Positions 55,078 through 59,528 of a stretch of DNA of 64,000 bases are shown in pieces (position 1 is the first letter of the stretch; the number at the start of each line of letters is the position of its first letter). The notes below the pieces were generated by a model. That model had not been told where the DNA came from and ran no database searches. It was given only the letters and a program-made list of their open reading frames with translations. The stretch lies in contig JABTUL010000001.1 of NCBI GenBank assembly GCA_015075425.1, forward strand, positions 62,001 through 126,000, written 5' to 3'. The DNA is from Spirochaetales bacterium (GTDB lineage Bacteria > Spirochaetota > Leptospiria > Leptospirales > Leptonemataceae). Made by a program: the position numbers and the translations under genes.

Positions 55078-55521
55078 TCATTCATTTCTTACCGGGCCCC
55101 GCAGGGCTTTGGTGGCGCCTGCCTTGCGCTTGTCAGCCACCATCTTTGCTCGGGCCCGGGCCGATCGCCGGCGCTTCTGCCTCCGTATCTTTTCGATTTT
55201 CTTTCTGGCTTCACTTTCCTTCCCTTTGATGGCTTCTTCCAGCTTATCCAGCAATCGCTTGCGGGCGAGGTAGCGGTTCAGTCCCTGGGTGCGTGCTGTG
55301 TCGGCCTGCACCGCGATCCCCGTTGGCAGATGCTTTAGTTTTACACATGTGGCCACTTTGTTGACGTTCTGGCCGCCTTTTCCGCCGGAGCGCACAAATT
55401 GTTCCAGCAAATCTTCCTCGCGCACGCCCAGAGCATCCATACGACGGGAGAGCCCGGCTGCCTTAGGGGCGCCCACGGGAAACGCTCTGCTACCAGGGGT
55501 AGCGTTCGGCTGTTTCGTCAT
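55078..55521 (-). CDS. Release-factor-like ribosome rescue protein (GGQ domain)
   Basis: 147 aa comprising only the peptidyl-tRNA hydrolysis domain of class I release factors. GGKGGQNVNKVAT carries the GGQ, followed by HLPTGIAVQADTARTQGLNRYLARKRL and a long Lys/Arg tail. Similar to the ArfB/C12orf65-type rescue factors that free stalled ribosomes. ATG 55521 overlaps the upstream gene by 32 nt; the RRMDALGVREEDLLEQF segment before GGQ supports this start. Confidence 0.9.
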   Translation of the reverse strand: MTKQPNATPGSRAFPVGAPKAAGLSRRMDALGVREEDLLEQFVRSGGKGGQNVNKVATCVKLKHLPTGIAVQADTARTQGLNRYLARKRLLDKLEEAIKGKESEARKKIEKIRRQKRRRSARARAKMVADKRKAGATKALRGPVRNE

Positions 55522-56191
55522 TGCTGTAGTTCACATCCTGTTTCGCTGTGGCTTCCTCGATCAGCTTGCCATTGGCCCCCACAGTTGCTGTCCAGCCAAA
55601 AGATCTTTCCGCCCTGAGGTCTGCGCGCGTGGGATAGATGTGGCCATAGATGAGTATCGTTTGATTTTTACTCAGGTGCAAGCGATCAGCTGCTGGATTG
55701 TTTTCATTGCCTGATCCCCGGAAGAGAAGTTCCCAGACGACGGAACCCTGGTCATCAAGCTTCAAAAGCCAGATCTGGTTGGCCGTGGCGGGATGAGCAA
55801 AGGGGCCCAGGTCCACATAGAATCCCCCGCCGGGCAGCATAACAGCAGCATGTCCTTCAATCGCACGCTTACCAGCTTTGCGAAACGATTTTTTCCAGAG
55901 CACTTTTCTGCTGGCATCAAAGCGAATGACGACGGCCTCCTGGTCACCGTTGGCCGTCGCGACCAATAAAGCACCGCCGTCGTGCGTTGCGATGATGGGA
56001 GCAAAGATCCCTTCTTTGTTGCCAATATAGCGCAAATAGGAAGAGTAAAGCCCCAGAGCGTTAGCTTCCGCATACTCTCTGGCGAATTGATAAAGGGGCT
56101 GTTTCTCATAGGGGAACTCGGCGCGAACATGGCCGGGGAAAAAAAACAATAGAAAAAAAACTAAAATTATGGTAGGTCGAAGATAATTCAT
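55490..56191 (-). CDS. Exported protein with beta-propeller-like sequence
   Basis: 233 aa. Signal peptide MNYLRPTIILVFFLLFFFPGHVRA. The mature part has repeated units such as DGGALLVATANGD, GGGFYVDLG and QIWLLKLDDQGSVVWE, the pattern of bacterial PQQ/Kelch-like or delta-60 propeller repeats. No enzyme motif seen. Its 3' end overlaps the rescue-factor gene. Confidence 0.8.
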   Translation of the reverse strand: MNYLRPTIILVFFLLFFFPGHVRAEFPYEKQPLYQFAREYAEANALGLYSSYLRYIGNKEGIFAPIIATHDGGALLVATANGDQEAVVIRFDASRKVLWKKSFRKAGKRAIEGHAAVMLPGGGFYVDLGPFAHPATANQIWLLKLDDQGSVVWELLFRGSGNENNPAADRLHLSKNQTILIYGHIYPTRADLRAERSFGWTATVGANGKLIEEATAKQDVNYSNDETAERYPW

Positions 56192-56344: not shown

Positions 56345-56359
56345 CGGGTGTGACAGGGA
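56345..56359 (+). repeat. 15-bp direct repeat, left copy
   Basis: CGGGTGTGACAGGGA, exact match to 58409-58423. It lies in the intergenic region 3' of the peptidase gene. The two copies enclose a four-gene cassette of about 2.06 kb. No other annotated function. Confidence 0.7.
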
Positions 56360-56394
56360 AGAAAAAAAGGGGTGAGCGGGGGAGAGAATTGCGC

Positions 56395-57297
56395 CTATTT
56401 GCGAGATTCAGGGACAAAGGCGACCACTGCATTTTCCTGGTGGTTTTCAATGATCTTGATGGCTCGCGACTGCCCAAAAGTATGCATAAAAGCATGGTGA
56501 GTAGTCAGAAGAAGATTCTGGAATTCATCATCGAATTCGTTCTCGATGCTTCTGATTTTTAGGCCAATAGAGCGGGCTTCTTCTTCATGGATATGACGCG
56601 CATGAGTTTTAGTATCATCATGATTGTTCAGATAGTTCACTATTTTACCAATGTCCGCATCTGCAGCATCGGAGAACATCACAGTCTTTAACCAGCCACT
56701 GACCATGCCGGATGCGAGCTCTATGGCATTCTGGCATTCGCCAATGAAGGTTGGGTGATACTTCTGGATAACGGCTTGCCATATCGGTATGGTACGCGGA
56801 TCCTTTATCGTTTCTGTAATGGCGCGCTCAAACTCAGCAAGGACTCCGTGTGCCGGGATGCCGTTAAATTGCGGATCAACCGGCCCAATGTTCGAATGCT
56901 TTCCCATAATGATCTCTTTGCAGGCACACGCGACCATTGTGCCCGCCGACATCGCGATTTGAGGTATCACCGCTCTAATATCTGAGCCAAACATTTTATG
57001 AATATAGTTCACCAGAGATTCAGTGGCGGTCAGATTGCCTCCGGGCGTGTGCAGAATCAGGTCCAATCCTTTCTTGCGATCCAGGCCGTGGATCACGGCC
57101 ATAAAGCCATTTTTATCATCGTCATTTATTTCAGCATTGCCTATGCCTGGCTTCTGTAGCCAGCCGGAGTAGTAAGCAATTACGTTGCGCCCGGTTTTCT
57201 CTGCAAATTGTCCGAGATACTTGCGGCGAACGAAGTCTAATCCATCGATTCGGCGCGAATCCTGGATTTCACGCAAGACATCATTCCAGTTAGGCAC
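56395..57297 (-). CDS. SDH/ClpP-fold serine peptidase
   Basis: 300 aa. Resembles the SDH family (PF01972), soluble relatives of SppA and ClpP. HTPGG at 83-87 forms the oxyanion region, MSAGTM carries nucleophile Ser117, and the following GKHSNIGPVDPQF block is typical. The N-terminus MPNWNDVLREI agrees with the family start, supporting the GTG at 57297 that directly follows the small gene's TGA. No signal peptide. Last gene of the repeat-flanked cassette; substrate unknown. Confidence 0.88.
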   Translation of the reverse strand: MPNWNDVLREIQDSRRIDGLDFVRRKYLGQFAEKTGRNVIAYYSGWLQKPGIGNAEINDDDKNGFMAVIHGLDRKKGLDLILHTPGGNLTATESLVNYIHKMFGSDIRAVIPQIAMSAGTMVACACKEIIMGKHSNIGPVDPQFNGIPAHGVLAEFERAITETIKDPRTIPIWQAVIQKYHPTFIGECQNAIELASGMVSGWLKTVMFSDAADADIGKIVNYLNNHDDTKTHARHIHEEEARSIGLKIRSIENEFDDEFQNLLLTTHHAFMHTFGQSRAIKIIENHQENAVVAFVPESRK

Positions 57298-57504
57298 TCA
57301 GTCGTCCCGAGAAATATTAGAATAAGATATATTCATATATTCTAATACGCTACATTTACGATACCGTTTCGCGAAATCCTCCGCGCTCTCATACCTTTCA
57401 TTGAGGACGTGCTGAAGACCGAGCCTTGCAAAGGCTCGGTCTATGTCAGCTCTATCCAGAGCTTGTTTCCCATTTTGCACAGATGTCTGCATACACTCAA
57501 ACAA
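57298..57504 (-). CDS. Small hypothetical protein preceding SDH peptidase
   Basis: 68 aa from TTG 57504, or 64 aa from ATG 57492. No family recognised. Its stop codon directly abuts the peptidase GTG (TGAGTG), so it may serve as a coupled leader or partner. The frame contains a perfect 12-bp hairpin and an AT-rich 10-bp inverted repeat, so part of this DNA may be structural or regulatory and not selected as protein. Confidence 0.55.
   Translation of the reverse strand: MFECMQTSVQNGKQALDRADIDRAFARLGLQHVLNERYESAEDFAKRYRKCSVLEYMNISYSNISRDD
57315..57347. repeat. AT-rich inverted repeat before SDH gene
   Basis: TATTAGAATA (57315-57324) and TATTCTAATA (57338-57347) are perfect complements around 13 nt. 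It sits 18 nt 5' of the peptidase start on the minus strand, within the small ORF, in a patch visibly richer in A+T than its surroundings. Possible regulator site or RNA hairpin controlling the peptidase. Confidence 0.6.
57416..57442. repeat. Perfect 12-bp hairpin with 3-nt loop
   Basis: AGACCGAGCCTT and AAGGCTCGGTCT flank GCA. No T tract follows on either strand, so it is not a standard terminator. It lies inside the 68-aa ORF of the cassette. Confidence 0.65.
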
Positions 57505-57600
57505 AGAGAATCCCGATTAAAAGTCAATCGTAAAGAGGGCCCCGTTGTAACAATTTCCTCAGGAACACTTTCCGGCCACTGCTGGAAAGGCTCGCATGCC

Positions 57601-58044
57601 TCACAGAGCAATCGCCTTCCCCTGCCCCTTCCGGCGCAGGGTTTTGCGCACGAAGGCCGCTGTCCTTTCTGCATCAGGCGCATATTGTCTGGTCCATTTA
57701 ACGCAATATTCCTCATTCCGAAATTCCAGCGGCACATCCCTGTGATACAGATGCAGAAATAGCAAGTCGTAGGCCAGATGGTCCTGCGAATATTTGGTCA
57801 GATACTCACCGCCCCATTTGTGCAGGCCACGCTGTAAACAGAAAAAGACTGCGAAATTCCTGGGTTCGTCTTTGTAGAATCGTAAGCTTCTGACCAAAGG
57901 CTTCATAGTCCGGTAGAGACTTCCGCCTGTTTCACCCGGAATGGCCCTCAGCACTCTATTCTCAAACTCATAGCCAGCGAAACGCAGCGCGCAAACGGAC
58001 ATTGCCTGATCGATAACAGACGGGAAATAGGAGTAGTCTTTCAT
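57601..58044 (-). CDS. Hypothetical protein in repeat-flanked cassette
   Basis: 147 aa, basic and aromatic-rich, with no signal or membrane segment. It contains LYRTMKPLVRSLRFYKDEPRNF-type sequence with many Arg, Tyr and Phe, three Cys and a strongly basic C-terminus (RKTLRRKGQGK). No family recognised; nucleic-acid binding is possible from composition only. ATG 58044 has GGAAG upstream. It follows the 106-aa gene by 12 nt. A 97-nt gap to the next gene shows nothing clear. Confidence 0.75.
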   Translation of the reverse strand: MKDYSYFPSVIDQAMSVCALRFAGYEFENRVLRAIPGETGGSLYRTMKPLVRSLRFYKDEPRNFAVFFCLQRGLHKWGGEYLTKYSQDHLAYDLLFLHLYHRDVPLEFRNEEYCVKWTRQYAPDAERTAAFVRKTLRRKGQGKAIAL

Positions 58045-58056
58045 ATGCTTCCGGGT

Positions 58057-58377
58057 TCATTCCTGCAGATCATAGAGTGTGCCCCAGATTCTGGAATACG
58101 CTTCATATTTCCGCTTCTGGTCGCCTTTCTGGTGGATCATATTCTTGAAATTGGGGTAATCCACCGATGCTTGCAATGCTGCCACAATCTGGCTGTATTC
58201 GAGATCATCCACGATGATACGGTAGCGATAATCGGCATCAGGCCAGGTCAGGATGCTTTTTTTGATCCTCGCAGCGGTTATCAGATTTTCCAGATCTTTC
58301 ATAAGCCGTGCGCGCACATGCAATCCGTCAGCCTTTTTTACAATAGAATAAAATCCATACTTTGATGCAATCCACAT
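58057..58377 (-). CDS. Conserved small protein (MWIASKYGFYSIV type)
   Basis: 106 aa. The N-terminus MWIASKYGFYSIVKK and the segment DADYRYRIIVDDLEYSQIV are reminiscent of small uncharacterised proteins found sporadically in many bacteria; I cannot give a family name. Soluble, alpha/beta. ATG 58377 with GGAG at six nt; the in-frame start at 58407 lies in the palindrome and is less likely. First gene of the cassette, 23 nt after a GC-rich palindrome that may control it. Confidence 0.78.
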   Translation of the reverse strand: MWIASKYGFYSIVKKADGLHVRARLMKDLENLITAARIKKSILTWPDADYRYRIIVDDLEYSQIVAALQASVDYPNFKNMIHQKGDQKRKYEAYSRIWGTLYDLQE

Positions 58378-58400
58378 AGTGCACTCCTTCGATGGAGAGA

Positions 58401-58418
58401 GTAACACCCGGGTGTGAC
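58401..58418. promoter_or_regulatory. Palindrome overlapping right direct repeat
   Basis: GTAACACCC-GGGTGTGAC pairs at 8 of 9 positions, with the core ACACCCGGGTGT perfect. It lies 23 nt upstream of the first cassette gene and overlaps the right 15-bp repeat. The left repeat lacks the palindrome's other arm. Could be an operator or recombination site. Confidence 0.55.
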
Positions 58419-58423
58419 AGGGA
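58409..58423 (+). repeat. 15-bp direct repeat, right copy
   Basis: Exact copy of 56345-56359. It ends 8 nt before the stop codon of the adenylate cyclase gene (the stop is at 58431-58433), a position typical of integration next to a gene 3' end. Confidence 0.7.
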
Positions 58424-58430
58424 TTAATGC

Positions 58431-59528
58431 CTATCCAGCCGGCCCTTTCAGGGCAACCACTTCAAGCGGTTCCTTCTTGCCCCGCAGCTCAATGGCTCCC
58501 AGTTCACGCACCTGCCATCCGGCCGGCATTGACATTCTGTCCAGCAGTGCCCGGGACAGAAGCAGGACCTCACCGGCCACGCGACAATGCGCAGCCAGGC
58601 GAGCTGTTGTGTTCATGGCATCCCCTACATGAGCGATTTCCTTTTTGAGGTCACCCAGCTCCCCGGTGATGATGCGGCCAAGATGCATTCCCGCGCGATA
58701 CAGAGGAGTAATACCAAAATGCAATTGAAAAAATTCTCTGCTTTTCTTGAGTTCTGCATTCAAGCGCTCAAAGAACAGGAGGCAGCGATTTTCCTGAGTC
58801 GCGGACTCTACCGGCCAGGTCAGAATGATTTCATCGCCAACATACTTATAAATCTCCGCTTTGGATTCTAGGATGGGTTCTGTCAGCCGATCAAAAAAGG
58901 CATTGAGGAAGTGCAAAAACTTTTCATCGCCCAGCTCTTCCGCTATTGTCGTTGAAGAAGCCAGATCCAGAAAAACGATGACTCTCTCTTCCGGGCGCGG
59001 TTGATGATAACGGCCACTGATAAAATTAAGCAGAATCTGCGGACCCAACAGGCGATTGATTTCAAAGGTGAAATTGAAAAGGAATGACACAAAGACAGCA
59101 ACGAATAAAGACTGAAAGAAATGTACGCGGGCCACATCATTGGCAACGGGGAATAAAATAAAACTATCATATTCCATAATGTAGCGGCCGGTGGCCCGCC
59201 CCACAAGGATCAGGAGCGTATAGACCAGAGTATTGAGGAAGACAACAGCAGAAAAGTTCCAGCGGTGCAGGACGGCCTTGAGGTAGAATTCAAAAAGGAG
59301 CAGTGTATAACCGCTCAGCAATAAAGCGATGAGGAAACCGTCCACCACCCCATTGAAAACGTTGAGTAAGGTCACGCTACCGCTGCCGGAGAAGCCCTGA
59401 TAGGTGCTGATGGAGGTTGCGGCCAGCCCGGTGACCGTGGAAATTTTCCAAACACGGCCAAGGTTGCGCTTCCATTTGTACGATCCGGGGCTATAGTTTT
59501 TTATTTTCAACAGCAATTCCTGAGCCAA
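58431..59528 (-). CDS. Membrane-bound class III adenylate/guanylate cyclase
   Basis: 365 aa. About six N-terminal membrane segments (residues 30-165), then a cyclase domain: FLDLASSTTIAEELG with the first metal Asp, KYVGDEIILTW with the second, and HVGDAMNTTARL for the transition-state region. Makes cAMP or cGMP; the substrate-specifying residues were not resolved. TTG start at 59528. Borders the repeat-flanked cassette on its 3' side and is divergent from the ketosynthase gene. Confidence 0.92.
   Translation of the reverse strand: MAQELLLKIKNYSPGSYKWKRNLGRVWKISTVTGLAATSISTYQGFSGSGSVTLLNVFNGVVDGFLIALLLSGYTLLLFEFYLKAVLHRWNFSAVVFLNTLVYTLLILVGRATGRYIMEYDSFILFPVANDVARVHFFQSLFVAVFVSFLFNFTFEINRLLGPQILLNFISGRYHQPRPEERVIVFLDLASSTTIAEELGDEKFLHFLNAFFDRLTEPILESKAEIYKYVGDEIILTWPVESATQENRCLLFFERLNAELKKSREFFQLHFGITPLYRAGMHLGRIITGELGDLKKEIAHVGDAMNTTARLAAHCRVAGEVLLLSRALLDRMSMPAGWQVRELGAIELRGKKEPLEVVALKGPAG

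Follow-up and report, generated by a model that had tools for sequence, protein, structure and literature searches.

A small-protein gene paired with a gene for an SDH-type peptidase of predicted ClpP fold in a Spirochaetales genome, in phages and across bacterial phyla

The window analysed here, a 64,000-nucleotide stretch of contig JABTUL010000001.1 from a Spirochaetales bacterium, contains a minus-strand operon of four genes that is bounded on both sides by the same 15-bp word, CGGGTGTGACAGGGA (Table 1). The initial annotation had described an exact 15-mer pair around one minus-strand operon, and this description is confirmed, with the genes following each other in the order p106, p147, p68, and SDH. 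The two copies are identical and are the only occurrences in the 4.13-Mb genome; an exact search thus found none of the many scattered copies that the initial annotation had named as counting against its reading, and no further copy was found in the window at up to two mismatches. One detail needs correction, since the right copy ends 7 nt, rather than 8 nt, short of the stop codon of the cyclase gene, which begins at position 58431.

Table 1. Genes and repeat copies of the locus, in window coordinates
Feature	Position	Strand	Description
Flanking exported protein	55490..56191	-	233 aa; homologs of ~335 aa, 45-46% identical, in two relatives
Left repeat copy	56345..56359	+	35 bp 3' of the SDH stop codon
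SDH	56395..57297	-	SDH/ClpP-fold serine peptidase (predicted), 300 aa, GTG start, phrog_11747 subfamily; PF01972 3.2e-20, phrog_11747 6.9e-97
p68	57298..57504	-	Small partner; 68 aa if started at TTG, 64 aa if started at the ATG at 57492; homologous to small ORFs upstream of other SDH genes
p147	57601..58044	-	Not a member of the conserved pair; distantly related to the gene that closes an MZA-type defence operon in Hymenobacter
p106	58057..58377	-	Not a member of the conserved pair; its family, with members in phage contigs and on plasmids, conserves an initial MW and the motifs VR.R and DY.NFK
Right repeat copy	58409..58423	+	Between the p106 start and the cyclase stop; overlaps palindrome ACACCCGGGTGT, which is absent from the left copy
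Flanking protein with class III (adenylate/guanylate) cyclase domain	58431..59528	-	PF00211 1.8e-7

The cyclase-domain protein has 41 matches in the whole genome, with similar numbers in several relatives, and it therefore belongs to a large paralogous set. The ~335-residue homologs of the exported protein carry about 100 extra residues on the N-terminal side, and the end of the gene in the window overlaps a gene for an RF-1-domain protein (55078-55521).

The last gene of the operon encodes a peptidase that scores 72.7 bits against PF01972 (SDH_protease), above the Pfam gathering score of 31.3. With this family and with the equivalog NF047768 ('SDH family Clp fold serine proteinase') it shares the ClpP-like fold, the MSAGT motif with the nucleophilic Ser, and the GP(I/V)DPQ motif, but its score against NF047768 (88.1 bits) lies far under the NCBI cut-off of 250, and it represents instead the phrog_11747 branch, which is accompanied by a dedicated small partner gene. 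The phrog_11747 record, which describes the same protease branch (E 6.9e-97), is listed with unknown function and names no partner. The structure was modelled as an artificial read-through of the p68 stop codon; in this model the SDH part is confident, with pLDDT above 90 nearly throughout, whereas the helix of p68 is only moderately so. The predicted structure of SDH aligns with ClpP1 (4u0h) over 169 residues with a VIA-align Z of 12.9 and an rmsd of 4.1, and on this basis SDH is predicted to have the ClpP fold; Foldseek E-values taken alone are weak, the best being 2.6e-3. A search of viral structures also matched SDH-like proteins of giant viruses.

In a profile alignment, Ser117 of SDH coincides with the serine of PH1510-N that we take to be the nucleophile Ser97, which makes Ser117 the putative nucleophile of SDH. 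This residue, together with Asp61, His83, Ser135, Asp141, His232, and Lys281, is invariant in all 139 distinct SDH sequences compared, and the conservation of the latter six suggests an active-site set different from those of ClpP and SppA/NfeD. While the fold and the position of the nucleophile are thus common to SDH, ClpP, and the SppA/NfeD (PH1510) peptidases, no AAA+ ATPase is seen in the two-gene module to which SDH belongs.

The other member of that module is p68, whose TGA stop codon directly precedes the in-frame GTG start of SDH. At 125 of 137 nonredundant loci, SDH has immediately upstream of it an ORF of 45-160 aa on the same strand, compared with 278 of 718 control genes (39%). An iterative profile seeded with p68 alone recruits 60 of the ORFs that precede SDH, whereas of 559 decoy ORFs it recruits none. 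The upstream ORFs of the remaining loci may be more diverged members of the same family or unrelated ORFs. In 14 close pairs, dN of the small ORF is well below dS (dN/dS well under 1) and is usually about 1.2-4 times the dN of SDH; the small upstream ORFs are under purifying selection and evolve faster than the enzyme. In members of the small-protein family, an initial helix containing aromatic residues is followed by another, short helix and by a Ser/Thr-rich tail, the latter a feature that is only moderately enriched (more than 25% Ser+Thr in 31% of these ORFs versus 15%). The gene for the small partner can be absent from annotation: in the two E. coli records that were viewed, SDH is annotated and the small ORF is not, as with the ORF that precedes SDH in the prophage at L228:9098-9301, which RefSeq leaves unannotated.

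The two genes at the head of the operon do not share this association. At none of about 170 other SDH loci is p106 or p147 a neighbour, and both have other partners elsewhere. A homolog of p106 in genome G006 adjoins an unrelated gene of 216 aa, and the structural model of p106 (pLDDT 74) has no PDB match below E 0.3. At L025 (32-802 and 1501-2034), a CRISPR array with 13 repeats at 61-bp spacing lies about 700 bp upstream of the p106 homolog of genome G092. The best homolog of p147 (tblastn 1e-5, 32% identity over 80%) comes from Hymenobacter, where its neighbours match MzaD/MzaE and its gene overlaps the end of the AIPR/MzaE gene. This is a likeness to the MZA defence system of p147 alone, and no window protein tested matches an MZA gene model. 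No convincing homolog of p147 was found in 393 genomes of the phylum, where two borderline matches contain stops, or in viral contigs. With homologs of p106 and p147 in other mobile or defence contexts, none of them near SDH in the loci compared, the operon adds to a conserved pair two small genes from families with mobile or defence links. The search for the three small proteins next to other SDH peptidases, which the initial annotation had proposed, thus succeeded for p68 and failed for p106 and p147, and the conserved unit is formed by the last two genes, p68 and SDH, not by a four-gene cassette.

Relatives of SDH occur in phages, on plasmids, in 153 viral contigs, and in at least 558 genome stretches, the best-matching ones being 37-66% identical. 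Named phages with the module include five Porphyromonas phages, the Mu-like MuM16-1 of Shewanella, and Gordonia phage BeeGee, which has a tyrosine integrase; of four high-coverage plasmid matches that were viewed, at least three have a phage-derived look. The pair spans many bacterial phyla and one archaeon; in the latter, a MAG of the methanogen Methanimicrococcus (L035), SDH is 63% identical and has a small ORF upstream, and the pair therefore crosses domains. The chromosomal neighbours are mostly unique, with 173 Pfam families over 136 neighbours, and include a few transposases, integrases, GmrSD, and BrxL; defence genes are in general few. At one locus (L005:1559-2750), an HNH-type protein and a DNA methyltransferase are encoded directly upstream of the pair.

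Among the matches listed for the SDH of the window, the best lies in a Nitrospirota MAG (66% identity), while in 100 relatives no match exceeds 46%. In the tree, it groups with two viral contigs and the Nitrospirota MAG with a support of 0.87-0.88. The G+C content between the repeats, compared with the surroundings as the initial annotation had advised, is 47.9% versus 52.7% for the window, placing the block in the lowest 1% of 2-kb windows, which fits a foreign origin. As the match to Nitrospirota exceeds those to relatives, and in view of the grouping with viral contigs and the low G+C, the module was probably acquired horizontally from a phage-borne lineage and came to lie beside the unrelated p106 and p147.

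A separate question, compatible with any functional reading, is whether the four genes form a single mobile element framed by the 15-bp repeat. The repeat is exact, unique to this place in the genome, and located in both intergenic gaps that bound the operon, and the low G+C of the block also agrees with such an element. The chance of the repeat, initially put well below 0.01, depends on how its placement is treated. When placement is ignored, an average of 0.2 exact direct repeats of at least 15 bp within 2.1 kb is expected per window, as estimated from first-order Markov versions of it, so that the earlier figure was too low by at least an order of magnitude for an unconstrained pair. When both copies are required to fall in the gaps on either side of the operon (203 and 53 bp), the chance becomes about 1e-5 per operon and roughly 1e-3 across the window, according to our own post hoc arithmetic.

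Related loci provide a comparison, in which the controls were flanks of equal geometry elsewhere in the same contig. Shared words of at least 14 bp are present in 6 of 105 module flanks and in 17 of 466 controls (p = 0.23), and because such words are not enriched, a lone 15-bp word is weak evidence. Repeats of at least 17 bp occur around 5 of 105 modules versus 4 of 466 controls, a weak enrichment (p = 0.013, uncorrected for the several cut-offs). Framing by repeats as a rule of the family had been indicated by an apparent excess of words of at least 14 bp (6/124 versus 0/611) when flanks were paired across different loci, and it vanished with the fairer same-contig control. Longer direct repeats enclose the two-gene module at a few other loci: of 260 bp and 89% identity in a Flavobacteriales MAG (L061, 1244-1501 and 3203-3461), of 94 bp and 88% identity in L096, and of 49 bp and 88% identity in L067 (1989-2037 and 3259-3307), where the repeat duplicates the 3' end of an upstream gene just past the SDH stop codon. 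These resemble the insertions with long target duplication described for restriction-modification systems (PMC3031569). Two further candidates were rejected, the repeat in L113 being two alike terminators and that in L049 a three-copy repeat.

Other observations bear against a single element in the window. Profile searches of the four ORFs returned no match to a recombinase or transposase, in agreement with the initial statement that no integrase lies inside, and p106 and p147 do not accompany SDH in any other locus examined. Nor was a syntenic empty site found: no orthologous junction of the cyclase and exported-protein genes was detected in the family, since the homologs of the exported protein sit among other genes and the best homolog of the cyclase is only 38% identical, and no second species of the genus was found among the relatives compared. 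Movement of the block is therefore unproven. Mobility through the 15-bp repeat is possible, and the two copies may be the scar of a horizontal insertion, which they do not prove; that the four genes constitute one mobile element, however, we consider unlikely. Of the exchangeable module proposed by the initial annotation, what stands is its accessory and horizontally spread nature, centred on SDH and plausibly linked to phage conflict, and what lacks support is the unity of the four genes.

The surroundings of the pair can be followed most closely in E. coli, where one allele is present in 42 of 5,426 genomes and is located between the lysis and terminase genes of prophages. About 2,100 genomes match the terminase-side flank and are without the module, although many of these matches are short; one such prophage was viewed, and similarity of this flank starts sharply after the module. 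The small ORF is preceded, at a distance of about 54 bp, by a promoter-like match, and 19 bp past SDH there is a hairpin with a T-run, both in numbers near shuffle expectation. The E. coli copy is moron-like, that is, an optional insert between phage genes that is absent from sibling prophages. In this it resembles prophage morons such as the superinfection exclusion gene gp15 of HK97 (cited in PMC10269795), likewise optional cargo between phage gene blocks. The product of gp15 is a membrane exclusion protein, whereas the module would act through a protease and a small protein.

That the small protein controls its protease is suggested by the order of the genes, by their tight coupling, and by how well the enzyme is conserved compared with its rapidly evolving partner; this control would most likely serve the prophage or its host, probably in phage conflict. 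The unit would then be a portable two-gene module in which a small protein, encoded just ahead of a ClpP-fold SDH-type peptidase, binds its own protease and holds it in check, with the extended Ser/Thr-rich tail perhaps serving as a docking strand or pseudosubstrate. The protease would be freed by a trigger, for which infection by another phage is the likeliest candidate, and might then cut host or phage proteins so that the infection is aborted or blocked. This reading, in which infection dislodges an inhibitor or pseudosubstrate and thereby sets proteolysis free, is the one that we favour over an adaptor, a toxin-antitoxin pair, or a counter-defence protein, and we hold it at a little under even confidence. 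None of the four proteins has a match in PADLOC 2.0.0.

If SDH were instead a housekeeping-like or phage-development protease to which the small protein, as an adaptor, hands substrates, for example late in phage development or in the quality control of host proteins, the nearly constant presence of the small gene beside the protease, the predicted ClpP fold, and the location of the pair among structural or late genes in some phages would all be accounted for. This seems improbable, as most prophages that share the terminase-side flank lack the module, which is therefore dispensable for the phage, the chromosomal copies are scattered beside unrelated genes, and the E. coli prophages that carry the module encode, apart from it, a ClpP-like prohead protease that is fused to the capsid protein. 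Two tightly coupled genes with the small, fast-evolving one first, found also on plasmids, equally recall a toxin-antitoxin pair, in which a putative unstable small antitoxin would restrain a putatively toxic protease and serve mainly to stabilise mobile elements. Such a role is doubtful, given that this allele sits in the chromosome of its E. coli carriers and that the high-coverage plasmid matches are mostly prophage-like plasmids. Finally, a phage-borne counter-defence, in which the protease destroys a host immune protein recognised by the small protein, would fit the phage location and explain the fast evolution of the partner, but it is very unlikely, because moron-like, late-region, or end-of-prophage sites and the many stand-alone chromosomal copies better suit a benefit to the lysogen than early takeover.

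Returning to the release of a restrained protease upon infection, we can speculate further that the pair represents a cross-phylum system of immunity or prophage warfare, in which a dedicated ClpP-fold protease needs no AAA+ unfoldase and has the hypervariable small protein as both its sensor and its pseudosubstrate, and in which the sensor gene is unannotated in some genomes; this broader version is conceivable, if on the doubtful side. The fold of the enzyme is known, and its conserved pairing with a small protein appears to be undescribed, as no paper on such a pair was found in the open-access literature, subject to paywalled or recent work. Present in hundreds of genomes, in temperate phages, and on plasmids, the two-gene module has a known fold but no established function, and annotation can miss one of its two genes. 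The E. coli prophage copy offers a laboratory-ready version of the module. If the small protein gates the protease, the pair would amount to a compact protease switch that is amenable to tests, and likely to a new class of phage-conflict genes.
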